A stretch of DNA of 64,000 nucleotides, from NCBI GenBank assembly GCA_020721005.1, contig DYNP01000016.1, forward strand, positions 1 through 64,000, given 5' to 3'. The stretch's first letter is position 1, and each line of letters opens with the position of its first letter. Below the pieces are notes generated by a model that was not told where the DNA came from, did not search any database, and worked only from the letters and a program-made list of their open reading frames with translations. Shown here one piece after another: positions 34,727-56,143 of this stretch. The position numbers and the translations under genes are program-made. The stretch is from Thiomargarita sp. (GTDB lineage Bacteria > Pseudomonadota > Gammaproteobacteria > Beggiatoales > Beggiatoaceae).

Positions 34727-35431
34727 TCAGTAATCGGCACAATCCAATTGTACTAAGGTACCCGGCACTTGTTGCCAGGCTTGACCCGTCCAACGGAATA
34801 CCAGATTTTGGGCATCAATGCTCCATACCGTTCCCTTCACGCCGACACACACTTGTTTGGCGCTGCCTTCTACCCGTTGCCAGCCTTGGGGACCGCCCCA
34901 CCGGTAAACATGGTCATTGGCACTGGTGCCCCAGATGTTGTTGGCATCGGCAACGTCGACTTGTTTTAAAACTCCAGGAATTTGTACCCAGCCTTGATTG
35001 GCATCGTAGGCCCAGATTTCGTTTTGTGGGTTAACGCCCCATACGGTGCCATCTGCTCCGACTGAGATTTGGGAAAATTTACCTGCCAATTGTTGCCAAC
35101 CATTGCCAGTCCAACGGAAAACGTCATTTTTGGCATCCACGGACCAAATGTGATCCTTGTTCCCAACGTCCACTTGTTTGGCACTGCCGGGAATTTGAAT
35201 CCAATTGTTATTGCTGTTCTCATAGGCCCAAACTTCATCTTTGGCATTGACTCCCCAAACGGTACCGTCAGTGGCCACGGAAACTTGTTTCAATTGGCCT
35301 TCTATCCGTTGCCAATCAATACCTATCCAGCGGAAAACCTCGCCATTGGCATTGACTCCCCACATTAGTTCGGCGTGTACCCCAGGCGCCATACTGAATA
35401 TAAAACATCCTAATAAGGCTAATTTTTTCAT
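34727..35431 (-). CDS. secreted six-repeat tectonin-domain protein
   Basis: 234 residues. Sec signal peptide (MKKLALLGCFIFSMAPGVHA) and six tandem repeats of about 35 residues, alternating (V/I)WGVNA...VFRW and WAYE..., each ending in a KQVDV or SQISV strand. This predicts a six-bladed beta-propeller of the tectonin type, known as lectins that bind sugars or methylated glycans. ATG 35431 has AAGGA six bases upstream and starts at the signal; the frame is open 16 codons further. A strong terminator lies downstream, so it is probably monocistronic. Confidence 0.92.
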   Translation of the reverse strand: MKKLALLGCFIFSMAPGVHAELMWGVNANGEVFRWIGIDWQRIEGQLKQVSVATDGTVWGVNAKDEVWAYENSNNNWIQIPGSAKQVDVGNKDHIWSVDAKNDVFRWTGNGWQQLAGKFSQISVGADGTVWGVNPQNEIWAYDANQGWVQIPGVLKQVDVADANNIWGTSANDHVYRWGGPQGWQRVEGSAKQVCVGVKGTVWSIDAQNLVFRWTGQAWQQVPGTLVQLDCADY

Positions 35432-35560
35432 GTAAATTCCTTCTGAAACTTGGTGTGATAAAGTATATAAGCATATCATGAATGACTTGTGAATTCAACG
35501 AATTTTAGTAGGCGTGTTGAAATACTATGCAGGCGTGATGAAATGGACCGTCAATAATAC

Positions 35561-40577: not shown

Positions 40578-40739
40578 CTATTCATCTCTTCTCTGAAGAA
40601 ATTTACCTGCCTCTGTGGTCCCGCCAGAAGTAGTTTTTGACAACTGCATCTCCTCACGTAGCTGTTGAGCTAACTGTTGGGCACGCTTACGTGATTCGGG
40701 AGACATTTTTTCGCGTAATAACTGGTAAGGTTTAGTCAT
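40578..40739 (-). pseudogene. truncated HigA/XRE-type antitoxin
   Basis: 53 residues. It begins MTKPYQLLREKMSPESRKR and continues AQQLAQQLREEMQLS, which resembles the N-terminal stretch of XRE-family antitoxins that follow RelE/HigB toxins. The helix-turn-helix expected next (ELRxxxxLTQ...) is absent; instead KTTSGGTTEAGKFLQRRDE and a stop follow. The ATG overlaps the toxin's stop codon by eight bases, as in intact toxin-first modules. A terminator 70 bases further leaves no room for the missing domain, so this is a true truncation, unless the short form is a functional variant. Confidence 0.65.
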
Positions 40740-41097
40740 CATAATCATTTTCCTCGGTTAAAGTCTTTAAATGTTCATCATATAGCTTCTCGGCGATAGG
40801 TATAAACTCCTTATACCAATCATCATTACCAGCTTTGTTGCCACCTATGAGTAAAATAGCTATACGTCTTGGATCAAGGGCATACAAAATTCGATAAGGT
40901 TGACCTTTGTGTTGAATCCTTAATTCGCGCAAACGTGAATGCCTTGAACCTTGAATTTGTGAACTATAAGGGTATTTAAGTTGGGGACCAAATTCTATAA
41001 GTAAATCTACTATCGCATCAATACTTTCTTGTTCTCCTTCATTCAGATGGTCCCACCACTGTCCAAATTCATCGGTGTATTCGACTTCAAAACTCAA
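40732..41097 (-). CDS. RelE/HigB-type toxin
   Basis: 121 residues. FEVEYTDEFGQWWDHLNEGEQESIDAIVDLL, SRHSRLRELRIQHKGQPYRILYALDPRRIAILLIGGNKAG and DDWYKEFIPIAEKLYDEHL match the RelE/ParE (HigB-like) family, ribosome-dependent mRNA interferases. The basic catalytic surface (RELR, YRILYA, R) is intact. Start is TTG (stop codon one codon upstream), with AAGGA about ten bases before. Its partner antitoxin appears truncated. Confidence 0.88.
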   Translation of the reverse strand: MSFEVEYTDEFGQWWDHLNEGEQESIDAIVDLLIEFGPQLKYPYSSQIQGSRHSRLRELRIQHKGQPYRILYALDPRRIAILLIGGNKAGNDDWYKEFIPIAEKLYDEHLKTLTEENDYDD

Positions 41098-41513
41098 AGG
41101 TTATATTCCTTCTTAATGTTAAAAATTAGTTTAGCTTAAGGTGGACAAAAATTCAAGTGTGTAATTGAAGTAGAGCAACCATTCTTCTGCCCAGTCAGAA
41201 GTGGATTGAATTGAGGTGGTCATGTTTTATAAGGTCATTTGGGTTAACTGAGATTGTATCATAATAAAGATTCCAGAGAGACGAATCAACTCTTAAACCT
41301 CCGTGGAAATTTAGGAAAGAAAGAATTTAATTGTCACTCTAATGAGTCATGGGTGGCCCAGTTGCTTATTCTACACGGGCTGGCAAAAAAATAAAACCTC
41401 GTCAGGTTTGGAAAGTGACGAGGTTTTTGGAAGATGGGAAGGGAATTGTGGAAGAAATGGGCAGTTACCGTTACCCATAGTCATAGCCACTCTACACTAG
41501 CCCAATTGAGTCG
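41098..41513. other. intergenic with second terminator unit
   Basis: Holds the promoter side of the toxin gene and the second copy of the 80-bp terminator unit. A 30-codon frame (41131-41223, minus) has no ribosome-binding site and is not called. Confidence 0.5.
41357..41436. terminator. terminator unit, copy 2
   Basis: Nearly identical to 40437-40517; stem at 41393-41404 and 41416-41427. It lies after the ATPase fragment on the minus strand. Direct duplication in this orientation frames the toxin module as a 920-bp unit. Confidence 0.85.
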
Positions 41514-42053
41514 CTAATAGCAAATTTTTTGAGTAGTTGCAGAAAAAGGGAAAAGACCACTGTTATCAACGCTGGGATACATGGTTCCAGATGCCGATGT
41601 ACACAGTTTAAGCCCATACACCATTGGTGACCATATTTGCCCGCCTGGTTGAACTTTTTTGGAGGAAAGTTTTTGTTTAACTGTTTCTAGTTGAGAAAGT
41701 ACCGATGGATCAAGCAATAATTGTTGTTTGGATGTCACTTTTTGTTGAAATTCGCTAATGAGATTAGCCAAGGAAGAAACCTGGTCCAAAGTCAATTCGG
41801 TTTCCACGACGATTTCATTGCAAATGATCCCACTGGATTCTTCTTCAAAGTCGATGAGGGGAACTTTTGATCTGAACCGATTTGAATGTTTTGAAAAGAG
41901 TTTTCTTAAGAGAGACAATATAGAGGTTTTGCCACTGCCATTGACACCGGTCAGTACAATCAGGTCTAAGGCTTTGCCGTTAGAATCGGTAAAGTCCAAT
42001 TCTAAGTCGTCAAACATTTTGTAATTTTTGACAGTTAATTTTCTAATTTTCAT
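41514..42053 (-). pseudogene. N-terminal fragment of an OLD/RecF-like AAA ATPase
   Basis: 179 residues. It starts like a RecF/OLD-type ATPase: MKIRKLTVKNYKMFDDLELDF and Walker A LTGVNGSGKTS (34-44). The rest of such proteins (Q-loop, signature, Walker B and usually 200-400 more residues) is missing; the frame ends after YGLKLCTSASGTMYPSVDNSG. It probably represents the front part of an ATPase whose TOPRIM-like partner or domain survives at 39811. Confidence 0.7.
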
Positions 42054-42401: not shown

Positions 42402-44543
42402 TCAGGATAAATCCTGATCAGTTGAATCACTGATGGCCAGTGATTTTTTATTTAAATCAATAGATTCTGATTTAGACAGCTCTGGTATCTCATTGTTTTG
42501 GTGTTTAACTAAAGGCAATAAAGTATTTCCCAATCCTGCAAAACAACTCAAATAAAATAGAGCCATACTTGTCGCAATACCAAAACTCAACAAATATACC
42601 CCACCAATAATTACCACTCCCGGCACAACACTGATCAGGTAATTTCTATCCATTGTTTGTTCAAATTCATCAACAAATTGGAAAAGGGAAGTGAGATGTT
42701 TTAGCGTGCCATCGACAAAAATGATTTGTGCTGTATCGGTTGCTGCCGTAGAAGCCCCTTTCAGCGAAATTGAGACTTGTGCTGATTTCAAGGCAATCGC
42801 ATCGTTGATGCCATCCCCAATAAAACAAACAAAACGCCCTTGGGCTTTCAATTGGTTGACATGATCGGCTTTGTTTTCTGGCAATACTTCGGCAAAATAA
42901 TGGTCAATGCCCAATGTTTCTGCCATTTTGCGGGTTGGGATTTCGTGGTCGCCAGAAATGATATAAAGTTGTATTTTTCGCTGTTTAAGAAAACGAATGA
43001 TTTCTTCAATTTCAGGGCGAATGCTTGGCTGCATTTCTAACACACCTGCCAATTTATGATCCACTGCCACATAAATCAGGGAATGACTTTCGGTGTCGGC
43101 CTGTTGTTGAATCAGATCAAGTTCAGGTGGCATGGTTATGCCTTCTCGCTGTATAAAACGCACACTGCCCACACGAATAATCTGAGTTTCCACGACCACT
43201 TTAATGCCATAACCCACTTCATAAGCGGCTTCATCCAGTTGTGGAATATCAATCTGTTGTGCTTGTGCGGCGGTGATAATTGCTTTAGCAATCGGGTGCG
43301 GTTGGCGGTATTCGGCGGCGGCGGCATAACGTAACACTTCAACTTCAGTAAATGCATCAAAAGTGTGAATTTTACTGACAATAGGTTGTTCTAAGGTTAA
43401 AGTGCCTGTTTTATCAAAAATAATCGTATCGACTTGTTTTAACGACTCAAATACTCGTCCATCTTTCACTAAAATCTGATGACGCGACATAATTTGTAGG
43501 TAACTCAATACCGTTAACGAACCTGCAGGCGCCATAATTCCCCCCAAATTTGACCACAGCACTGCAATGGCTGCATTGGGCCCTAAAATCGGCAATGTGA
43601 GTGCGCTTGCACCCACAGTCACCGGTAAAAAACGGTCAGCAACCACTCTACCGCGTGTCATCAAAGTTTCTTTATAATTTTGGGTTTGATTTAACACTTC
43701 ACCAATTTTAGCGGCCATGGTGGCATCGCCTGCTTGCGACACTTCGATGACTAAACGTCCTGATAACAAGAGCGTTGACGCATAAACCGATTCACCAATT
43801 GTTCTCTCGACGGCTTCGCTTTCTCCGGTCAATAAATGCTGGTCAACTCGTCCTTCGCCGGACTGAATAGAACCATCAACAGGTATCACTTCTCCGGCAT
43901 TGACAATGACTAAATCGCCGACTTGTAATTGATGGAAATCAATTTGAATTTCAACCCCATCACGCAATAGCCATACTTGTTGTGGATGGCCACTGAATAC
44001 ACGAATTAATTGCTGTTGTGAATCGGATTCTAAGCGATTAATAATGCCCGCAAAAAAACCACCAATCACCCCCGTAAAAGCCGCTAAGAGCAAATTCCCC
44101 GTCACAATCATGCCCAGGGTCACAATTAAACCAATTAAATAAACACTGAGATAATGTCCGCGTTTAAAATCTTTATGAATCAGTTTAAAGGTTTCTTTTG
44201 ACAAATACAGCACAGCTGCTGCGCCAATTAAGGTAAAAGTAGGCGAGAAACTTCCCAACAAAGCAAGCCCCATCGCCCCTAAAGACAATTGCATATCACG
44301 CTTACGTTCACGTTCTTGGGCCTCTAATAAGGCGCGTTGCTTTGGATCAATGTCGAGTTGCAACTGTTGTCGTCCCTCGGCACGCAATGCATCCCGAATA
44401 TCGTGTAATAAATGACGTTTTCTTTCTTTTGCGGGCGATACTTCAGAAATATTTATCGTATTTTGTGGAGTCAATTCTTTTGTAGATTTTTGAATTTTCC
44501 ACAGACCAAATGCGCCACCGATTAAGATTATTTCAATAATCAT
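42402..44543 (-). CDS. P1B-type ATPase lacking the CPx motif
   Basis: 713 residues. Complete catalytic chassis: LTGESEAVE (about 237-245), phosphorylation site DKTGTLT (about 377), the P1B-specific HP motif in RQPHPIAKAI, and GDGINDAIAL (about 580). The transmembrane metal site normally read as CPC-A-L is MAPAGS (337-342), so both cysteines are Ala. There is no N-terminal heavy-metal-associated domain; an N-terminal hydrophobic helix and charged linker replace it. The substrate is therefore probably not Cu or Zn/Cd by the known ligands. The ATG overlaps the NRPS stop (ATGA), so it is coupled to the synthetase and may export or import its product or ion. Confidence 0.9.
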   Translation of the reverse strand: MIIEIILIGGAFGLWKIQKSTKELTPQNTINISEVSPAKERKRHLLHDIRDALRAEGRQQLQLDIDPKQRALLEAQERERKRDMQLSLGAMGLALLGSFSPTFTLIGAAAVLYLSKETFKLIHKDFKRGHYLSVYLIGLIVTLGMIVTGNLLLAAFTGVIGGFFAGIINRLESDSQQQLIRVFSGHPQQVWLLRDGVEIQIDFHQLQVGDLVIVNAGEVIPVDGSIQSGEGRVDQHLLTGESEAVERTIGESVYASTLLLSGRLVIEVSQAGDATMAAKIGEVLNQTQNYKETLMTRGRVVADRFLPVTVGASALTLPILGPNAAIAVLWSNLGGIMAPAGSLTVLSYLQIMSRHQILVKDGRVFESLKQVDTIIFDKTGTLTLEQPIVSKIHTFDAFTEVEVLRYAAAAEYRQPHPIAKAIITAAQAQQIDIPQLDEAAYEVGYGIKVVVETQIIRVGSVRFIQREGITMPPELDLIQQQADTESHSLIYVAVDHKLAGVLEMQPSIRPEIEEIIRFLKQRKIQLYIISGDHEIPTRKMAETLGIDHYFAEVLPENKADHVNQLKAQGRFVCFIGDGINDAIALKSAQVSISLKGASTAATDTAQIIFVDGTLKHLTSLFQFVDEFEQTMDRNYLISVVPGVVIIGGVYLLSFGIATSMALFYLSCFAGLGNTLLPLVKHQNNEIPELSKSESIDLNKKSLAISDSTDQDLS

Positions 44544-47500
44544 AATAAGTTTTCCTGAGTATTTTTATTCATTGTATTTGCCATGGCCTGTGTTAATAAA
44601 GAGGCTAACTCTGCCACATAAGGTTGAGTCAACATAGTGATATGTCCGCCTGAGGTTTCGATAATTTGTACCGTTTGGGTAGAATATAATTGCCAACCCC
44701 AATCAAGACTATTTGGGCGTTCAGTTTCATTAGGAATTTCTTTAGCTTTGACCAAAATAATAGGGCAATTAATTTGATAATTCGGTCGATAATAAGCATG
44801 GTTACGAATCATCGTTTGGTAAATGGCCACAAGATGTTTTAGTTCTTCGACTGGCGTTTGAGGCGCGAACATCCCCGCGATTTGCACGTGTTCCATGACT
44901 TGTTCATAACGTTTATAACTATCTGATTCTGCCGCGATTTCTGCTTCAGTCAAATCGATTTGGGTATTTTTCAATTCCTCAACAATCTTAACCACACTCC
45001 ACAGGGCTTCTACTTCGGTTAATTCGGCAGTGGGTTCGGGGTTTATTTGTGGGGCAGTTGTATCTAGGATAATGAGACATTGTATTTTTTCGCCTTGTTT
45101 TTCCAATTGATGCGCCAGAGCTAAGGCGACACGTCCTCCTGCGGAATGACCTGCAAAACGATAGGGACCATTGGGCTGCTGTTTGCGAATGGCTTGTAAC
45201 AGCAAGGCGGCGTGTTGTTCTACACTATCAGGCATGGGGCATTCCCCATGCAATCCTGGTGTTTCCAAGCCATATAGGGGCTGATCAATGCCGAGATGAC
45301 AGGCTAAAGCGTGCAAATACAAAACATGGCCGCCGGCACCAGGCAGACAATACAATGGCGGTTGGCTGCCTTGGATTTGTATCGGGACTAGACAACTGTG
45401 TTGTGTATTATTTTGTTGTAGATGCTGTGCCAATTGAGCAATCGTTGGGCTACTGAACAAGACTGCTAAAGGCAGTTTTTGCTGCCAATGTTGCTGAATA
45501 TGGCTCATAAGTTGAACCGCAAGCAGTGAGTGTCCGCCCAGTTCAAAGAAGTTATCACGAATGCCAATCTTTTGAATATTCAGCACTTTTTGCCAGGTTT
45601 GAATTAATTGTAACTCAGCTTGATTACGCGGAGTTTCTTGATTGCTTGTGATATGGCTTTTTTCAGGTTCAGGCAAAGCCTTACGGTCAATTTTACCATT
45701 CGGTGTTAAAGGCAATTTATCCAAAATGGTGAAATAAGTCGGTACCATATAATCAGGTAATTTCACTTTTAAAACTTCACGTAAATCGCTAATATCCGCG
45801 TTTTTATCTGCTAAAACAAGATAAGCCGCTAAAGATTTATTGCCGTCTTTCTCATGTAAAATAACAATGGCATCTTTTATGGATTCTTGCTGGGTTAAAA
45901 TGGCTTCAATTTCGCCCAATTCAATGCGAAATCCCCGCAATTTAACTTGATGGTCAATTCGTCCTAAATAGTCTAAATTCCCATCAGGCAACCAACGGGC
46001 TAAATCACCTGTTTTATAGACCCGTTCGGTTTTGCCGAATAATTCTAATTCAACGAATTTCTCGGCGGTTAAATCGGGGCGATTGAGATAGCCTCTGGCT
46101 AGTCCATCGCCTGCAATGCACAATTCGCCTGCAATGCCGATGGGGACGGGGTGATTTTGCGTATCTACGATATGAATTCGGGTATTGCTCAAAGGTTTAC
46201 CAATTAAACTGGGCTGTTCTGGGGATTGAGTTGCATTATGTGCGCTTGACCAAATGGTTGTTTCTGTTGGTCCATAAACATTCCATAATTGCTCACTTTG
46301 TTGCAATAATGCTTGCCCTAAATTTTCGGGTAATGCTTCGCCACCACATAAGATGGTTAATGGTCTATTTTGTTGCCAATTATTATCTAATAACAATTTC
46401 CATGTTGCAGGTGTTGCTTGCATTAAACATATATCATATTGTTGCAATAAAACTTGCAGTTTTTCTCCATCACTTGCCGTTTCTCGGTCTGTTAAAACAA
46501 TACCCATACCTGTTAAAAGCGGCAGATAAAGTTCTAATCCAGCAATATCAAATGATAGCGTAGTAACTGCCAATAAGTAACTATTTAATTTTGATTGAAG
46601 TCGCAATTGCATGTCGTGTAAAAAATTATGCAATGCTTGATGCTCAATCATTACTCCTTTAGGCCGTCCCGTAGAGCCTGAAGTAAATAACACATAAGCC
46701 AAACTGTCTGAATTTAAAGCTAATTCTAAATTCTTAGTGGATTGTTGCGCGAATCTTTCCCAATTATCTAAGCATAAAATATCCGCTTGATGTTCGGGTA
46801 AAGTATTTTGTAATGAGGTTTGGGTTAATAGCACCGAAACGCGGCTGTCTTCCAACATCCACGCCAATCGTTCCTGGGGATAATTCGGGTCTAAGGGCAC
46901 ATAAGCTCCGCCTGCTTTTAAAATGCCTAATAAACCAATCACCATTTCTAAAGACCGCTCAATACAAATGCCGATCAGTGTATCCGATTGAACGTGATAT
47001 TGATTTTTAAGAAAATGTGCCAATTGATTGGCTTTTTCATTTAATTGGACATAAGTTAAACTTTGCGCTTGGAAAATAACCGCCGTGTTATTCGGAGTGG
47101 CTTTAACTTGTTGCTCAAATAAATCAACAATGGTTTTGTCTTTGGGATAATCGGTTGTGGTGTTATTCCACTGTTGTAATTGCTCAATTTCTGTGCTGGT
47201 TAATAGCGGTAATTGTTGTGGCTGAGTATGGCTATCTGCTTGGCTAATACCTTCCAATAAATTCGCTAAATGCTGTAATAAGCGTTCCATTTGAGCAGCA
47301 TCAAATTTTTCGCTTTGGTAGCTTAATCGAAAATGCAGTTGTTGTTTAGCATGGACAGCTAAAGTCAGCGGATAATTGGTTTGTTCTATGGAATTAACGT
47401 TTTTAATTTGCAGAGTTTGGGTAGCCTCGCTAAGTGCTTGTTCATCGACAGGATAGTTTTCAAACACTAAAATACTGTCAAACAAAGCGATGCCGTTTGG

Positions 47501-50500
47501 CACTTCACTCCAACGTTGGATTTCTGCCAGTGGGGTGTAGGCGTAGTGTTGGTCTTGCTGTTGTTGCTGCTGGAGTTGTTGGAGCAGTTGCGTCAGGTTC
47601 AAGTTATCCAGTTGAACGCGCACGGGTAAGGTATTGATAAATAAACCAATCATGCGTTCAATGCCTACAACAGGAGCGTGTCGGCCTGCGCTGGTTGCTC
47701 CAAATACGATGTCTTGCTGCCCACTGTAGCGGCTTAGTAGTAATGCCCATGCAGCTTGTACAAGAATGTTCAGAGTTACGCGGTGTTGTCGTGCTCGTTG
47801 GGTTAAGCATTCGCTCAATGCAGGGCTGCAACTGTAGTTTACGATGCCTTGACTGCCTTCTATGTTGCTTGTTGAGAACTTTTGAGGCAATGGTGTGGGT
47901 GCTTCAAAGCCTTGTAATTTGCGTGTCCAGTAAGCTTCTGCGGCTTGTGAGTCTTGCTGCACAAGCCAACGGATGTAATCTTGATAAGGGCGCACAGGTG
48001 GCAATTGTGCTTGTTTACCTTGCCGTAGGGCTTGGTAGCTTCGGAAAAGTTCTTCAAATAAAATCGGTAAACACCAACCGTCCGTTAGAACATGGTGGGA
48101 ATCCCAGTATAAGGTGTAGTCGTTTTCGTTGTGACGCTGCAAGGTTAAGTGCATTAACGGAGCTTGATTGAAATCCGTACAACGCGCTTTGGCTTGTTGG
48201 CGAGCAGCATTAATATTTTCTGAATCTTCTAATTCTAACCAAGGCAATTTGACTTGTTGCAAGACTAATTGCAATGGTGGAGTATATTCAGTTAAAAAAG
48301 CAGTGCGTAAAATTGCATGACGGTCAACTAAAATTTCCCATGCCTGTTTGAGTAATTTAGCGTCTAATTGCCCAGCGATTTCTATTTGTAATTGGGTGAT
48401 ATAGGTATCGCTATCTGGGGCGTAAAGACTATGAAATAACATACCTGCTTGCATTGGAGTCAACGGGTAAATCGCAGCAATATTTTGCGGATATTGTTGG
48501 GCAAGTTCATCCAGTTGTGTTTGCGTTAAATTGGCTAATAGGAAATCTGATGGCGTATAGCCGCTATGGTATTGGCAATGTTCAATTAAGGCTGTGAGGT
48601 GTTGTTGATAGCTTTGACTCACTTTCTCAAGACTATTATGACTCAAATAGCCACTGCTAAATGTTAAGTTTAATTGCCCATTAATAATGCTACCGTTAAT
48701 GTCAAGAATATGTTCGCTTTGAATGCGGTCGCTGACGCTTTGCCCCGTTGATTCTTGGGTTAATTGAAACAGATTATCAGGTGTATTGCCTGCGTCCATT
48801 TGCCCAAGATAATTAAATAATACTTGCCCTTGTGGCAAATCTTGTTGTTGCAAATAGCGCAAAACACCGTAGCCAATGCCATCATGAGGAATTTGGCGTA
48901 ATTGTTCTTTAATTGCTTTTAATTGCGTACCAAGATTTGTTGTATTGGGTAAATTTAATGGCACGCTATATAAAGCAGTAAACCAACCAACGGTACGAGT
49001 TAAATCTAAATCAGGAAATAGCTCATGGTTACGGCCATGACTTTCTAAGTCAATTAAATGCTCATGCTGTCCTGTCCATGCCTGCAATGTTTGCATTAAG
49101 GCGGTCAGCAGCAAGTCGTTGATACGAGTGCGATAAGCCGCAGGGGCTTGATCGAGTAGGCGTTGTGTCCAGTTGCTGTCCAAGCATAAATTGTGATGCT
49201 GCGTAAGGCGTGGCGTTAGATAGTCGATGGGATAAGCAACTTGTAAAGTGGGGAGTTGCTGCCAATAAGCACGGTCAGCATCATGCCAATTTTGTAAATG
49301 CTGATTCCATGCGCGGACACTGCTGGTTTTAGCAGGTAATTGAATCGGTTGTTGTTCTACTGCTTGTTGATAAGCATTCGCTAAATCTTCCAAGAGAATG
49401 CGCCATGAAACGCCATCAACCGCAAGATGATGAATACACCACAGTAAACGGCTTTCGCTGCCGCAATCAAAACGCACTAAACGGGTAATTGGTCCTGTTT
49501 GTAAATTTAGACTGGTTTGCCAATCGGTTGCGCGTTGTGCTAAATCATTTAAATTAATTAGCGTTTCTTGATGATAGGATGGTGTGTTTTCAATTTCATC
49601 TCGATAGTATTGCTGCCAATTATTTTCACTTAATTGATAGCATAAACGCAAAGCATCGTGATGCGAGATTAAATAATGCAAAGCTCGTTTTAAAGCAGCA
49701 TTATCTAAAGTGTTAGGAATTTTGATTAACACCGCTTGATTAAAATGCCATGCTTCTTCATATTGCGCGTTTAAGAAATAAGTTTGAATGGGATGTAAAG
49801 GAACATCGCCTTGTAACAGCCCTTGTTCTGCTGTGATTACCGCTAAAGGTTGCACCTGCACGGCGGCCAACTCAGCAATGGTCTGGTGTTGAAACACATC
49901 ACGCGGACTGATTCCCAACCCTGCTTGTCGCGCACGCGCAACAATCTGTAAACTTAAAATTGAATCTCCGCCTAACTCAAAGAAATTATCATGAACACTA
50001 ATGGTTTGACGCTTCAGTAAAGTTTGCCAGATGATAGCAAGTTGCTGTTCTGTTTCATTACGCGGCATAATGAAATCAGCAGTACTGAGTATTTGTTCAG
50101 GCTCAGGTAAAGCTTTACGGTCAATTTTACCATTCGGCGTTAAAGGCAATTTATCCAAAATGGTGAAATAACTTGGCAGCATATAATCAGGTAATTTTGC
50201 TTTTAAAGCCTCGCGTAAACCGCCAATATCCGCGTTTTTATTTGCTAAAACAAGATAAGCCGCTAACGATTTATTGCCATCTTTCTCATGTAAAATAACA
50301 ACCGCATCTTTTACTAATTCTTGCTGGGTTAAAACGGCTTCAATTTCGCCTAATTCAATGCGGAATCCCCGCAATTTAATTTGATGGTCAATCCGCCCTA
50401 AATACTCTAAATTCCCATCAGGCAACCAACGGGCTAAATCACCTGTTTTATAGACCCGTTCGGTTTTGCCAAAAATTTCTAATTCAACGAATTTCTCAGC

Positions 50501-53500
50501 GGTTAAATCGGGGCGATTGAGATAGCCATTGCCAACTTGCACGCCACCAATATGAAGCTCGCCTGTAATGCCTATTGGTTGACATTGATTATGTGCATTT
50601 AAAATATAAACCTGTGTATTGGCAATAGGCTGTCCAATGGGTACTATATTATTTTTAATGTTTAAATCACATCGCCATGCTGTTACATCAATGGCTGCTT
50701 CAGTAGGTCCATATAAATTATGCAATTGTGTTTGATAAAAATAGTGATATGTTCTTTGCATTAGCTCGAGAGGTAATGCTTCTCCACTACAAATAATATG
50801 GCGCAAACTCGAGCAATGATTGATTGTAATAACTTCAATAAAAGCACTGAGCATCGAAGGGACAAAATGCAACACAGAAATGCGCATTTCTTCAATTAAA
50901 TCAAGCAAATAATTAGGGTCTTGATGTCCTAGTGGTTTAGCAACAACTAATTGTGCGCCGGTAATTAGCGGCCAAAAAAATTCCCAAACTGAAACATCAA
51001 AGCTAAAAGGTGTTTTTTGCAAAACTTTATCATTAGAGGTTAATCGATATTCAGATTGCATCCAGAGTAAACGGTTTTGCAAACCACGATGATGATTAAT
51101 TGCTCCTTTCGGTTTCCCCGTAGAACCCGACGTATAAATCACATAAGCTAAACTTTCTGGACTTAAAATTAAATCTAAATTCTTAGTAGATTGTTGTGCG
51201 AATCTTTCCCAATTATCTAAACATAAAATATTGGCTTGATGTTCGGGTAAAGTATTTTGTAATGACGTTTGAGTTAATAGCACCGAAACACAGCTATCTT
51301 CCAACATCCACGCCAAGCGTTGTTGGGGATAATTTGGGTCTAAAGGCACATAAGCCCCGCCTGCTTTTAAAATACCTAATAAACCAATCACCATTTCTAA
51401 AGAACGTTCAATACAAATGCCGATCAGTGTATCCGATTGAACGTGATATTGATTTTTAAGAAAATGTGCCAATTGATTGGCTTTTTCATTTAATTGGACA
51501 TAAGTTAAACTTTCTTCTTGAAACACAACAGCAATATTATTGGGCGTTGCTTTGACTTGTTGCTCAAATAAATCAACAATGGTTTTATCTTTGGGATAAT
51601 TTACTGCGGTATTATTCCAGTGTTGGAGTTGTTCAATTTCTGTTGGGGTCAGTAATTGATGACGATAAATCGGTAATTCTGGAGCTTGTAATAATTGGGT
51701 TAATAAATGGGCAAAATGATGGCTTAATCGCTCAATAGTTGATAATTGAAATAAATCAGTCGCATATTCCCATGAACAATCCAAATGTCCTTCTTGCTCA
51801 CTGACGCTTAAGGTTAAATCAAATTTAGCGGTTAAATTCTCTTGTGCCAATGATTTAATGCTTAAATTCGGCAATTGAAAATTCGTTGAATCAGGTGTGT
51901 TTTGCAGCACAAACATCACTTGAAATAACGGCGCATGACTCAGGGTTCGCGTTGGATTAACCGCTTCAACAACTTGCTCAAAAGGCGTGTCTTGGTGCGC
52001 GTAAGCGGCTAATGTGCTGTGGCGAGTTTGTGTTAATAGCTCATTAAAATTGGTGTTGGCATCAATTTGAGTGCGCAAAACTAAGGTATTAACAAAAAAG
52101 CCAATTAATTCTTCGGTTTGTTGCTGGGTGCGATTTGCAATTGGGCTGCCAATTAAAATATCATTTTGACCGCTGTAACGATGCAATAACACATTGAATG
52201 CGGACAATAAGGTCATGAAAACAGTACATCCATTTTTTTGGCTAAATTGCTGTATGTTTTGACTTAATTCTTTTGACAATTGAGTTTGCAAATGATTGCC
52301 GCGATAACTTTGCATGGCAGGACGCGAAAAATCAGTCGGCAATTCTAATAACTCAGGCGCATTGGCTAATTGGTTTTGCCAATAATGCAGTTGTTGCTGT
52401 AAGATTTCGCCCGATAACCAATTTCTTTGCCATGTCGCATAATCGGTGTAATTAATGCTTAATGGTTTTAATTGGGTTTCTGGATTAGAATAAAAAGCCA
52501 TCCATTCCCGAATTAAAACTCCCATTGACCAACCATCGCTAATGATATGGTGCATATTGAATAATAAAACATAATTGTCTGCACTGAGTTTTAATAATTC
52601 AACTTGCAATAATTTGCCTTGAGCTAAATTAAATGGTTTGCTGGCGTGTTGCTGGGCTAAATGTTGAATTTGCGCCTGTTGCTCTATTTCGGGCAAATGG
52701 GTTAAATCGGTGATTGTGAGTGGGTTATAAGTCGCCAATTCAATAACGCTGGCTTCCCCATTTATGCTGGGAAAACTGAGGCGTAAACTTTGATGGCGAG
52801 CCACTAAAGAAATCAAACTTTGTTGCAATTTCTCAAGGTCTAAATCGCCCGTTAATTGCAATGTCGCAGGCATATTGTAAGTGGCTGATTCACCTTCAAG
52901 TTGCGCCAAAAACCAAAGCCGTTGCTGGGCATAAGACATGACCAAAGTTTGCTTATCTGTTTGCGGAATAATCGCAGGTAATGTTGTGCCACGTTGTTGC
53001 TGAATCAGCCAATCAGAAAAGTCACTTAAAACAGGCTTATCAAATAATTGCCGCAATGGAATTTCAATTTCAAAATTATGGCGAATGCGAGCAATTAATT
53101 GGGTCGCTAATAAAGAATGTCCACCCAATTCAAAGAAATTCACCGCACGACTGTTAATTTCACAGCGCAATACTTCTGACCATAAATTCGCCAATAAATG
53201 GTCGGTTTCATTGCGTAATGGTCGGTTTTCCGTGCTGGTATTGATTAAATCAGGTTCAGGCAAAGCCTTACGGTCAATTTTACCATTCGGCGTTAAAGGC
53301 AATTTATCCAAAATGGTGAAATAACTTGGCAGCATATAATCAGGTAATTTTGCTTTTAAAGCCTCGCGTAAACCGCCAATATCCGCGTTTTTATTTGCTA
53401 AAACAAGATAAGCCGCTAACGATTTATTGCCATCTTTCTCATGTAAAATAACAACAGCATCTTTTATGGATTCTTGCTGGGTTAAAACCGCTTCAATTTC

Positions 53501-56143
53501 GCCTAATTCAATGCGGAATCCCCGCAATTTGATCTGATGGTCAATCCGTCCTAAATATTCTAAATTCCCATCAGGCAACCAACGGGCTAAATCGCCTGTT
53601 TTATAGACCCGTTCGGTTTTGCCGAATAATTCTAATTCAACGAATTTCTCAGCGGTTAAATCGGGGCGATTGAGATAGCCTCTGGCGAGTCCATCGCCTG
53701 CAACATACATTTCGCCTGCTACACCAATAGGCATCACCTGCTTGTTAGCATCCAGAACATAAACTGATAAGTCTGCTAAAGGCTGACCGACAACGCTTTT
53801 ACCGTATATGAAATCAGGTGAAATATAACAATACGTTACATGTACAGTTGTTTCTGTGATGCCGTACATATTGCTTAATGTTGGTGTATGGGCTGCATAT
53901 TTTTCAAACCAAGCTTGTAACATTGCAGGCTCTAATGCTTCGCCACCAAAAATAACATGACGTAAATTATTTAAACGAGTTTTCGTTTGTTGATCTGCAT
54001 CAATTAACTGACGAAATGCTGAAGGCGTTTGGTTTAATACGGTAACTTGATGTTGTGTTAAAAACGTATGAAAATCACTAGGTGAACGACTTAGCCAATA
54101 AGGTACAATTAATAATTGACCACCATACAATAATGCACCCCATAGTTCCCATACTGAAAAATCAAACGCATAAGAATGAAACAGTGTCCAAACATCTTTA
54201 TCATTAAATTGATAAATAGAGTCTGTTGCTTTATATAAGCGAGTAACATTGTGATGAGTAATTAGACAACCTTTCGGCTTCCCAGTAGAACCCGATGTAT
54301 AAATCACATAAGCCAAACTTTCTGGATTTAAAGCTAATTTTAAATTCTCAATAGATTGCTGCGCGAATCTTTCCCAATTATCTAAGCATAAAATATCAAC
54401 TTGATGTTCGGGTAAAGTATTTTGTAGTGAGGTTTGGGTTAATAGCACCGAAACACGACTATCTTCCAACATCCACGCCAAACGTTGTTGGGGATAATTT
54501 GGGTCTAAAGGCACATAAGCTCCACCCGCTTTTAAAATGCCTAATAAACCAATCACCATTTCTAAAGACCGCTCAATACAAATGCCGATCAGTGTATCCG
54601 ATTGAACGTGATATTGATTTTTAAGAAAATGTGCCAATTGATTGGCTTTTTCATTTAATTGGACATAAGTTAAACTTTGCGCTTGGAAAATAACCGCCGT
54701 GTTATTCGGAGTGGCTTTAACTTGTTGCTCAAATAAATCAACAATGGTTTTGTCTTTGGGATAATCGGTTGTGGTGTTATTCCACTGTTGTAATTGCTCA
54801 ATTTCTGTTGGGGTCAGTAAAGATAATTGGGCAATAGGCAATTCTGCTTGAGCAAGCACTTGTTCTAATAAAAATAAAAATCGAGACTGAAATGCTTTAA
54901 TATCTTCAATCGTAAAAAACGCATGATTAAATACGAAATCGCATTTAATATCTTGATTACGGTGAAACTCACGAATAAATAACGTTAATGGGGTTTGTGA
55001 AGCATTATTTAAAAAATTAACAGCATATCCACTTGTTTTGCCAAAACTAAAATTATGATCGTGTTTTTCGTATGAAACACTAATATCATATAAACGTTCA
55101 TGGATAATATTTAAACCAACTGCACGACCAATTTCACTAACAGGACAGCGTTGATGACGATAATTAGCTTTTAGTTTTTTACTAATTTGTTGGATTAGTG
55201 CAACAAAAGTACTACTCAAATGACAAGAGAATAGTGCAGGACTAATGCCTGTAAAAAGACCTACTGTATTTTTAAATTGTGCATTTGCTCTATTTTGTAT
55301 AGGCAGACCAAAAATAACCTCTTGTTTTTGTGAAACACGAGAAAAATAAACCGTTAATACGCCTAAAAATACATGAAAGATACTCACTTGATGATTATGC
55401 GCTAATGAAGCTAGCTTCTGATAAAACGCATGAGATAAATATAAAGACTCACAACTGCTATAATCTTTATCAGATAAGTTTTGAGACTTTAATAATGATT
55501 CAGTGGGGAGTGAAAATTCTTCTTGCCAATAGTGTCGATTTTTGATAAAGGTTTTTGATCCAATGTAATCAAGATCTTGCTGAATAAAATCAACATAAGA
55601 TGGGGCTTCTATTGGTGGAAATTTATTTTCACTTAATTTGCTATAAATATCAGCAAGCGATTTGTTCAGTAATGCACCCGCCCAGCCATCAAACATAATA
55701 TGATGATATTTAATAAAGATATAAAACAATGTTTCTGAGCATTTTAGTAATTTATAACGAAATAATGGCTTACCTTGCAAATCAAACGGCGCAATAAATT
55801 GTGCCTGCATCCACGCCAAAGCGGCCGCTTCAGGATTTTCCGCCTGAGAAAAATCCTGCATTTCTACCGTGACTGACACCTGCGGCAAAAATTGCTGCAT
55901 CGGCACACCATCCTCATTTAGTGTGTCTGTCAATACCAAGCGTAGCGCATCATGTTTTTGCACTAATAAAGCAATGGCCTGTTGAAATAAATCAGGATCA
56001 ATCGTTCCTGCTAATTTGACATAACCACCCACATTATATAGTGGCAGTTCAGGATGTAATAACTGGTCAAACCAGATTTCACGTTGGGAAGAAGTAAGAG
56101 GATATAAGGTTGTTTCGGCAGTATAGGATGCAGAAGAAGACAT
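44540..56143 (-). CDS. three-module nonribosomal peptide synthetase, predicted Thr-D-Ser-Gly
   Basis: 3867 residues. Domain order with rough positions: C1 (10-440, HHIMFDG), A1 (455-965), T1 (about 1008, LGGHSLL), C2 (1065-1490, HHIISDG), A2 (1505-2015), T2 (2056, LGGDSIL), E (2118-2555, HHLAVDGVSW, NYLGQ), C3 (2565-2970, HHVLTDG), A3 (2985-3490), T3 (3536, LGGHSLL), TE (3600-3850, GHSAGG, LDTT, GGHITML). Specificity residues read by eye are DFWNIGMVHK (Thr), DVWHISLIDK (Ser) and DILQLGVIWK (Gly). The LGGDS carrier before E is typical. C1 on the first module implies an acyl or aryl cap on Thr; no cap-forming genes or MbtH protein are in the window. TE releases or cyclises the product. Product unknown. 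Confidence 0.95.
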   Translation of the reverse strand: MSSSASYTAETTLYPLTSSQREIWFDQLLHPELPLYNVGGYVKLAGTIDPDLFQQAIALLVQKHDALRLVLTDTLNEDGVPMQQFLPQVSVTVEMQDFSQAENPEAAALAWMQAQFIAPFDLQGKPLFRYKLLKCSETLFYIFIKYHHIMFDGWAGALLNKSLADIYSKLSENKFPPIEAPSYVDFIQQDLDYIGSKTFIKNRHYWQEEFSLPTESLLKSQNLSDKDYSSCESLYLSHAFYQKLASLAHNHQVSIFHVFLGVLTVYFSRVSQKQEVIFGLPIQNRANAQFKNTVGLFTGISPALFSCHLSSTFVALIQQISKKLKANYRHQRCPVSEIGRAVGLNIIHERLYDISVSYEKHDHNFSFGKTSGYAVNFLNNASQTPLTLFIREFHRNQDIKCDFVFNHAFFTIEDIKAFQSRFLFLLEQVLAQAELPIAQLSLLTPTEIEQLQQWNNTTTDYPKDKTIVDLFEQQVKATPNNTAVIFQAQSLTYVQLNEKANQLAHFLKNQYHVQSDTLIGICIERSLEMVIGLLGILKAGGAYVPLDPNYPQQRLAWMLEDSRVSVLLTQTSLQNTLPEHQVDILCLDNWERFAQQSIENLKLALNPESLAYVIYTSGSTGKPKGCLITHHNVTRLYKATDSIYQFNDKDVWTLFHSYAFDFSVWELWGALLYGGQLLIVPYWLSRSPSDFHTFLTQHQVTVLNQTPSAFRQLIDADQQTKTRLNNLRHVIFGGEALEPAMLQAWFEKYAAHTPTLSNMYGITETTVHVTYCYISPDFIYGKSVVGQPLADLSVYVLDANKQVMPIGVAGEMYVAGDGLARGYLNRPDLTAEKFVELELFGKTERVYKTGDLARWLPDGNLEYLGRIDHQIKLRGFRIELGEIEAVLTQQESIKDAVVILHEKDGNKSLAAYLVLANKNADIGGLREALKAKLPDYMLPSYFTILDKLPLTPNGKIDRKALPEPDLINTSTENRPLRNETDHLLANLWSEVLRCEINSRAVNFFELGGHSLLATQLIARIRHNFEIEIPLRQLFDKPVLSDFSDWLIQQQRGTTLPAIIPQTDKQTLVMSYAQQRLWFLAQLEGESATYNMPATLQLTGDLDLEKLQQSLISLVARHQSLRLSFPSINGEASVIELATYNPLTITDLTHLPEIEQQAQIQHLAQQHASKPFNLAQGKLLQVELLKLSADNYVLLFNMHHIISDGWSMGVLIREWMAFYSNPETQLKPLSINYTDYATWQRNWLSGEILQQQLHYWQNQLANAPELLELPTDFSRPAMQSYRGNHLQTQLSKELSQNIQQFSQKNGCTVFMTLLSAFNVLLHRYSGQNDILIGSPIANRTQQQTEELIGFFVNTLVLRTQIDANTNFNELLTQTRHSTLAAYAHQDTPFEQVVEAVNPTRTLSHAPLFQVMFVLQNTPDSTNFQLPNLSIKSLAQENLTAKFDLTLSVSEQEGHLDCSWEYATDLFQLSTIERLSHHFAHLLTQLLQAPELPIYRHQLLTPTEIEQLQHWNNTAVNYPKDKTIVDLFEQQVKATPNNIAVVFQEESLTYVQLNEKANQLAHFLKNQYHVQSDTLIGICIERSLEMVIGLLGILKAGGAYVPLDPNYPQQRLAWMLEDSCVSVLLTQTSLQNTLPEHQANILCLDNWERFAQQSTKNLDLILSPESLAYVIYTSGSTGKPKGAINHHRGLQNRLLWMQSEYRLTSNDKVLQKTPFSFDVSVWEFFWPLITGAQLVVAKPLGHQDPNYLLDLIEEMRISVLHFVPSMLSAFIEVITINHCSSLRHIICSGEALPLELMQRTYHYFYQTQLHNLYGPTEAAIDVTAWRCDLNIKNNIVPIGQPIANTQVYILNAHNQCQPIGITGELHIGGVQVGNGYLNRPDLTAEKFVELEIFGKTERVYKTGDLARWLPDGNLEYLGRIDHQIKLRGFRIELGEIEAVLTQQELVKDAVVILHEKDGNKSLAAYLVLANKNADIGGLREALKAKLPDYMLPSYFTILDKLPLTPNGKIDRKALPEPEQILSTADFIMPRNETEQQLAIIWQTLLKRQTISVHDNFFELGGDSILSLQIVARARQAGLGISPRDVFQHQTIAELAAVQVQPLAVITAEQGLLQGDVPLHPIQTYFLNAQYEEAWHFNQAVLIKIPNTLDNAALKRALHYLISHHDALRLCYQLSENNWQQYYRDEIENTPSYHQETLINLNDLAQRATDWQTSLNLQTGPITRLVRFDCGSESRLLWCIHHLAVDGVSWRILLEDLANAYQQAVEQQPIQLPAKTSSVRAWNQHLQNWHDADRAYWQQLPTLQVAYPIDYLTPRLTQHHNLCLDSNWTQRLLDQAPAAYRTRINDLLLTALMQTLQAWTGQHEHLIDLESHGRNHELFPDLDLTRTVGWFTALYSVPLNLPNTTNLGTQLKAIKEQLRQIPHDGIGYGVLRYLQQQDLPQGQVLFNYLGQMDAGNTPDNLFQLTQESTGQSVSDRIQSEHILDINGSIINGQLNLTFSSGYLSHNSLEKVSQSYQQHLTALIEHCQYHSGYTPSDFLLANLTQTQLDELAQQYPQNIAAIYPLTPMQAGMLFHSLYAPDSDTYITQLQIEIAGQLDAKLLKQAWEILVDRHAILRTAFLTEYTPPLQLVLQQVKLPWLELEDSENINAARQQAKARCTDFNQAPLMHLTLQRHNENDYTLYWDSHHVLTDGWCLPILFEELFRSYQALRQGKQAQLPPVRPYQDYIRWLVQQDSQAAEAYWTRKLQGFEAPTPLPQKFSTSNIEGSQGIVNYSCSPALSECLTQRARQHRVTLNILVQAAWALLLSRYSGQQDIVFGATSAGRHAPVVGIERMIGLFINTLPVRVQLDNLNLTQLLQQLQQQQQQDQHYAYTPLAEIQRWSEVPNGIALFDSILVFENYPVDEQALSEATQTLQIKNVNSIEQTNYPLTLAVHAKQQLHFRLSYQSEKFDAAQMERLLQHLANLLEGISQADSHTQPQQLPLLTSTEIEQLQQWNNTTTDYPKDKTIVDLFEQQVKATPNNTAVIFQAQSLTYVQLNEKANQLAHFLKNQYHVQSDTLIGICIERSLEMVIGLLGILKAGGAYVPLDPNYPQERLAWMLEDSRVSVLLTQTSLQNTLPEHQADILCLDNWERFAQQSTKNLELALNSDSLAYVLFTSGSTGRPKGVMIEHQALHNFLHDMQLRLQSKLNSYLLAVTTLSFDIAGLELYLPLLTGMGIVLTDRETASDGEKLQVLLQQYDICLMQATPATWKLLLDNNWQQNRPLTILCGGEALPENLGQALLQQSEQLWNVYGPTETTIWSSAHNATQSPEQPSLIGKPLSNTRIHIVDTQNHPVPIGIAGELCIAGDGLARGYLNRPDLTAEKFVELELFGKTERVYKTGDLARWLPDGNLDYLGRIDHQVKLRGFRIELGEIEAILTQQESIKDAIVILHEKDGNKSLAAYLVLADKNADISDLREVLKVKLPDYMVPTYFTILDKLPLTPNGKIDRKALPEPEKSHITSNQETPRNQAELQLIQTWQKVLNIQKIGIRDNFFELGGHSLLAVQLMSHIQQHWQQKLPLAVLFSSPTIAQLAQHLQQNNTQHSCLVPIQIQGSQPPLYCLPGAGGHVLYLHALACHLGIDQPLYGLETPGLHGECPMPDSVEQHAALLLQAIRKQQPNGPYRFAGHSAGGRVALALAHQLEKQGEKIQCLIILDTTAPQINPEPTAELTEVEALWSVVKIVEELKNTQIDLTEAEIAAESDSYKRYEQVMEHVQIAGMFAPQTPVEELKHLVAIYQTMIRNHAYYRPNYQINCPIILVKAKEIPNETERPNSLDWGWQLYSTQTVQIIETSGGHITMLTQPYVAELASLLTQAMANTMNKNTQENLL

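Follow-up and report, generated by a model that had tools for sequence, protein, structure and literature searches.

Type-1 P-type ATPases are taken to be metal or potassium pumps, and a standard profile labels the P-type ATPase described here "heavy metal translocating". The protein is encoded in a 64,000-nucleotide stretch of Thiomargarita sp. DNA, the whole of which is referred to below as the window. Its gene overlaps the end of an NRPS gene, and the protein carries none of the usual P1B metal sites in membrane segment M4. The question raised by this locus is what such a pump transports and whether the synthetase beside it supplies the substrate.

The NRPS–ATPase gene pair

Both genes are located on the minus strand, with the NRPS upstream of the ATPase (Table 1). 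The 3′ end of the NRPS gene reads TTATGA, and the start codon of the ATPase is the ATG within these letters. The overlap described in the preliminary description is thus present in the sequence, and the coupling of the two genes claimed there is supported. The GC-content of the pair (0.393 and 0.419) is lower than that of the flanks (0.454 and 0.461), making the pair AT-richer than either side. Fifteen neighbouring ORFs of the window were scanned, and no other transporter was found among them. They are mostly housekeeping or unrelated genes and include 2-isopropylmalate synthase, uracil-DNA glycosylase, 6-phosphogluconate dehydrogenase, MoaB, a hybrid histidine kinase and an AAA fragment. Given the ATGA overlap and the lack of another transporter among the scanned neighbours, the three-module NRPS and the ATPase look like a two-gene operon with translational coupling.

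Table 1. Positions in the window of the gene pair and of the ATPase and NRPS features discussed in the text.
Feature	Position	Strand	Basis
P-type ATPase, 713 aa, P1B fold, without metal site	42402..44543	-	ORF list, Pfam, profiles, model, structure search
NRPS, 3867 aa; 4 condensation-type, 3 adenylation and 3 carrier stretches, 1 thioesterase	44540..56143	-	
ATGA overlap of NRPS stop (TGA) and ATPase start (ATG)	44540..44543	-	
NRPS thioesterase domain, residues 3596-3839	44627..45358	-	
DKTGT phosphorylation motif, codons 377-381	43401..43415	-	
M4 kink in the model, W-S-N-L-G-G-I, codons 330-336; Gly334 = D-43	43536..43556	-	model and spacing
Ala-Pro-Ala, codons 338-340, in the helix that follows the kink and outside the CPC position	43524..43532	-	

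Downstream of the ATPase gene, a Gp49-type toxin-like ORF and a 179-aa AAA fragment (40732-42053, minus strand) look like remnants. Tectonin-domain matches were found in a 250-aa protein encoded at 34727-35479 on the minus strand.

Motifs and fold of the ATPase

The motifs of the P-type superfamily are all present in the window ATPase, with TGES at residue 239, DKTGT at 377, HP at 416 and GDGxND at 576. Every catalytic motif and the HP motif are therefore kept, as had been described, and a Pfam search likewise found no metal-binding N-terminal domain. Such a domain is common, although not universal, in P1B heavy-metal ATPases. The TIGR01525 profile of the heavy-metal subfamily scores the protein at 370.6 bits, above its cut-off of 346.25. 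The score of the TIGR01657 profile for P5B polyamine pumps (91.9 bits) is below the cut-off of 618.25, and the P5 and P4 models score the protein far under their cut-offs.

The AlphaFold2 model of the protein has a pLDDT of 86.3 and a pTM of 0.82. The closest structures to this model (VIA-align) are P1B pumps, the first six comprising cadmium, copper and zinc pumps with Z from 28.6 to 24.2. The leading matches are 7qbz (Z 28.6, 594 residues, rmsd 9.8), 8q74 (Z 28.4, 593 residues, rmsd 5.7) and 7r0g (Z 28.2, 608 residues, rmsd 7.2), and the fold covers residues 75-687 of the window ATPase.

Register of the M4 site

The M4 proline lies exactly 43 residues before the phosphorylated aspartate (position D-43) in E. 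coli CopA, ZntA, KdpB and MgtA, and the same spacing is found in L008, the CPC pump of the window genome. In the window ATPase, D-43 is Gly334, and Leu333-Gly334-Gly335 (D-44 to D-42) occupies the CPC slot. A CPC, SPC, TPC or CPH metal site is absent from M4, which contains no Cys, His, Asp or Glu at all; the segments listed for the protein hold one Cys (667) and no His.

The preliminary description had placed Ala338-Pro339-Ala340 in the position of CPC. The tripeptide exists and the metal site is indeed missing, but APA is located at D-39 to D-37, four to six residues past Gly334. In the AlphaFold2 model, M4 is broken at 330-336 and helical again at 337-354, which places APA after the kink, on the second half-helix. 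Both the gapless D-43 spacing and the model argue against APA as the equivalent of CPC, and this assignment was rejected. A gapped HMMER alignment of the window ATPase to a CopA sets APA near CPC, which may explain the register given originally.

Extent and diversity of the clade

The window genome encodes seven P-type ATPases of the same kind and one CPC pump, three weaker matches having been left out. At E 1e-100 or better, the window ATPase is matched in 27 of 57 related genomes (its own included), with up to 13 matches per genome, and all 27 belong to the bacterial family of the window, Beggiatoaceae. With so many relatives, the window pump is not an isolated oddity. In the class as a whole, where at most three candidates were scored per genome, matches at 1e-85 were obtained for 9 of 369 genomes, of which six belong to other bacterial families. 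When species genomes were scanned with the M4 region, 80 loci were obtained; they come from Beggiatoaceae, Thiothrix, Methylococcaceae, Chromatiaceae and, sporadically, other bacteria, with many MAGs among them. The clade is expanded in Beggiatoaceae and patchy elsewhere.

Site residues were counted in 178 distinct P-type ORFs of the fetched loci (locus numbers are given below with the letter L), consisting of 175 family rows and three non-family pumps with Pro at D-43. Pro is absent at D-43 in 174 of the 175 family rows, the exception being L043, and D-44 and D-42, the two cysteine positions of CPC, are without Cys in all 175; in L210, Cys is found at D-43. The residues at D-43 are Gly (105), Ala (17), Lys (16), Ser (13), Thr (12) and others, and they differ strongly between subclades. 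In the tree, a branch with an SH-aLRT of 100 separates 47 family rows from nine control pumps. Judged by sequence, the family is a distinct clade of P-type ATPases without the M4 proline and without the CPC cysteines. Across 87 aligned members, DKTGT, HP and the G-D-N-D residues of GDGxND show no variation, and the members therefore look like working ATPases.

The APA tripeptide is not a property of the clade. Its letters occur anywhere in the D-46 to D-30 range in 3 of the 178 ORFs, and at D-39 to D-37 in the window protein only. It had been considered that APA might prove widespread among homologues with an ordinary metal substrate; at that place it was found in no other protein examined. 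The near relatives of the window ATPase have L-G-x at the site and no APA, and the tripeptide is therefore no marker of a role tied to an NRPS. In the alignment column where the window protein has Ser342, 68 of the 87 aligned members have Pro, so that Pro339 looks like a private shift. Arg occupies D-39 in 44 of the 87 members and, speculatively, could bind carboxylates.

Linkage to NRPS genes

Of 109 family ATPases in Beggiatoaceae, 12 have a condensation domain no more than 8 kb away, always on the strand of the ATPase, and the other 97 have none within this distance. The wider scan gave 10 of 66 further family ATPases, with the same strand in 8 of 10. The condensation-domain gene is the immediate neighbour in 5/109 and 5/66 cases, respectively. 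NRPS-rich genomes hold more of these ATPases, which a flat expectation (3.7%) ignores; the expectation was therefore made genome by genome, and this weakens the excess, the flat expectation giving smaller P values. The 27 genomes hold 263 scored condensation domains; in one genome (G032), 40 of 56 candidates were scored and the expectation uses 56, and genome sizes are rounded. The window was excluded from the test because it had been found through its NRPS. Without it, 11 of 108 ATPases have a condensation domain nearby versus 4.7 expected (P 0.007), or 10 of 107 (P 0.017) if two L092 ATPases sharing one NRPS are counted once. For the window's own clade, the values are 4 of 17 versus 0.75 expected (P 0.005). 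The NRPS excess near family ATPases is real but moderate. No NRPS lies close to L045, which is the nearest relative of the window ATPase in the larger tree.

Seven NRPSs found beside family members differ in domain composition. The window NRPS is of the type with four condensation domains and a thioesterase, and that of L044 has a single adenylation domain and a thioesterase. The NRPS of L038 contains two methyltransferase stretches, that of L052 a sulfotransferase and a thioesterase, and that of L056 a methyltransferase and a terminal reductase; these three are truncated by the end of a stretch or contig. A formyltransferase is present in L155 and a nitroreductase-type insertion in L182. In addition, the Methylobacter member L157 is flanked by a modular PKS and a phosphopantetheinyl transferase.

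Other biosynthetic neighbours

An NRPS is not the exclusive partner of these ATPases: most members have none nearby, and many other biosynthetic genes adjoin them. The neighbours analysed were the 87 nearest same-strand genes within 150 bases, encoding at least 110 aa and cut to 500 aa, and the controls were 87 genes from the same loci at a distance of at least four genes. The PF08241 methyltransferase family accounts for 15 of the 87 nearest neighbours versus no more than one of the 87 controls (Fisher P 1.5e-4 with one assumed). This comparison concerns PF08241 alone, and no methyltransferase family reached two members in the listed controls. L086 and L087 are the same ATPase counted twice; if both methyltransferases are among the 15, the count becomes 13/85 (P 5e-4). 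The 25 commonest families of the nearest neighbours also include PLP decarboxylases, TPP enzymes, enolase-superfamily enzymes and AMP-binding enzymes (three each), as well as thioester reductase-type, histidine-specific methyltransferase, TauD and sulfotransferase families (two each). The control list contains two AMP-binding proteins and singles of many families. The L068 ATPase is followed by a carbamoyltransferase. Some members lie among ordinary genes, L041 in a nuo operon and L069 beside a Maf-like gene (by eye).

Two sets of loci give hints at substrates. In L067 and L103, which are near-identical by descent, Leu-Asp-Asp stands at the site, and a PLP decarboxylase and an aminotransferase are encoded directly after the ATPase. 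The best model for the L067 decarboxylase is diaminobutyrate decarboxylase, at a score of 389 well below the cut-off of 900, and the aminotransferase is over the cut-off of the diaminobutyrate transaminase model. A sulfotransferase gene is found within five genes of 5 of 16 members with Lys at D-43 versus 6 of 159 others (P 0.001); since three of the five sulfotransferase seeds came from Lys loci and 11 of the 16 Lys members belong to one subclade, this link is a hint only.

Comparison with known transporters

The window ATPase resembles the P1B heavy-metal ATPases (TIGR01525; CopA, ZntA) in fold, catalytic motifs, HP motif and a profile score over the cut-off. It differs from them in lacking a CPC-type M4 site, the M4 proline and the metal-binding N-domain, and its family is on a separate tree branch and is found beside biosynthetic genes. 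The P5B polyamine and P4 lipid ATPases are P-type pumps for organic substrates and show that the P-type cycle, which the window ATPase shares, can serve such substrates; they are distant from it by sequence, their models scoring far below cut-off, and they keep the M4 proline. ABC- and MFS-type exporters of NRPS products are likewise encoded by a transporter gene inside the NRPS operon, but represent an unrelated protein family with a different energy cycle.

The FUPA families of P-type ATPases reportedly go back to Chan et al. 2010. FUPA families 25, 27 and 32 are described as prokaryotic type-1 families with type-1 topology and extra N-terminal segments, the function of several being unknown, and one member of family 27 is reported to insert copper into oxidases (PMC3924187). 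Compared by these descriptions only, the uncharacterised type-1 FUPA families might include the clade (PMC3924187). Searches of the open literature, with listings mostly at abstract level, returned no P-type ATPase family of this kind described as metabolite transporters.

Proposed function and alternative explanations

The lack of a Cys/His metal site in M4, the coupling to the NRPS and the recurrence of NRPS-linked relatives favour a non-metal transport role. To this extent the new role suggested in the preliminary description holds; APA as its defining, NRPS-marking feature does not, and the scope is broader, as the relatives adjoin many other biosynthetic enzymes. Our leading explanation, to which we give slightly less than an even chance, is that family members are dedicated pumps for specialised metabolites and that the window ATPase pumps the product of its NRPS. 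The protein keeps the phosphorylation cycle of P-type pumps and the P1B fold, whereas its substrate site at the M4 kink has been rebuilt without metal ligands. Many members of the clade would transport small specialised metabolites, their genes lying next to those of the enzymes that produce the substrate. For the window ATPase, this would mean that the peptide set free by the NRPS, probably a tripeptide, leaves the cytoplasm through ordinary E1/E2 cycling of the pump; both the metabolite as substrate and export as the direction are what we infer. Weighing against this explanation are the majority of members with no NRPS nearby, L045 among them, and the members that lie among ordinary genes. 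A more sweeping version, which we hold with greater doubt, would make the whole branch a group of pumps for natural products or amino-acid derivatives. These pumps would have been recruited into biosynthetic operons with the M4 kink retuned to product chemistry, two acidic residues being found beside a diamine-type pathway, Lys beside sulfotransferases and Gly beside NRPSs.

If the clade moves organic products, it would constitute a new class of primary active metabolite transporter. It would also serve as a marker for poorly known biosynthetic loci of giant sulfur bacteria, and its natural series of rebuilt M4 sites would bear on how P-type ATPases change substrate.

Metal transport could have been retained, in which case the protein would be an atypical P1B ATPase providing or removing a metal tied to a metallophore or to metal-dependent biosynthetic enzymes. 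The P1B fold and the TIGR01525 score of the protein agree with this, and one published NRPS metallophore cluster includes a heavy-metal P-type ATPase, whether or not akin to the clade (PMC12210259). The ligands one would look for are missing, both at the CPC positions of the 175 family rows, where Pro at D-43 is also lacking in 174, and in M4 of the window protein, whose listed segments hold a single Cys and no His. Many of the linked pathways, by eye, are not metallophore-like, and we consider a metal substrate improbable. Also unlikely is a general auxiliary role, in which all members of the clade would move the same substrate (for example a simple ion, a lipid or a counter-ion) in aid of many pathways, and not the pathway products. 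Ions, lipids and polyamines are all known substrates of P-type ATPases, and such a role would account for the very diverse neighbouring enzymes, but the strong differences at D-43 between subclades fit different substrates better.

The association with biosynthetic genes might, finally, involve no functional link, with often-moved ATPase genes landing in variable regions where biosynthetic clusters gather. The AT-richness of the window operon relative to its flanks, the patchy occurrence outside Beggiatoaceae, a transposase-like ORF adjoining L045 (by eye) and the moderate size of the NRPS excess are in line with such hitchhiking. The common strand in all 12 Beggiatoaceae NRPS cases, the start/stop overlap in the window and the enrichment of enzymes at the nearest same-strand gene, as compared with genes four or more away in the same loci, speak against it and make it a rather unlikely account. 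The explanation preferred here remains a pump for the product of the adjoining enzymes.

Unusual members of the clade

The lone family member with Pro at D-43 (S-P-G) is encoded on contig C79 of the window genome (L043:6186-10870, plus strand). Its ATPase gene is preceded by two homologous genes, one of them for a beta-ketoacyl synthase, and an AMP-binding enzyme is encoded farther upstream. Another member, on contig C76 of the same genome (L041:8771-11395, plus strand), is fused in frame to a NuoE-type 2Fe-2S thioredoxin-like domain (residues 727-874), and the fusion adjoins genes resembling nuoD, nuoF, nuoG and nuoH (by eye). Among 31 genomes with a NuoE match, the best match lies in an 886-aa frame in the window genome only, the frames of the other 30 being 159-201 aa long.

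In L179, L202 and L205, a family ATPase with F-G-N at the site is accompanied by a CPC-type P1B pump within a few genes. A small homologous membrane-type protein of about 140-210 aa is encoded within five genes of the family ATPase in L043, L066, L067, L076, L088 and L113.
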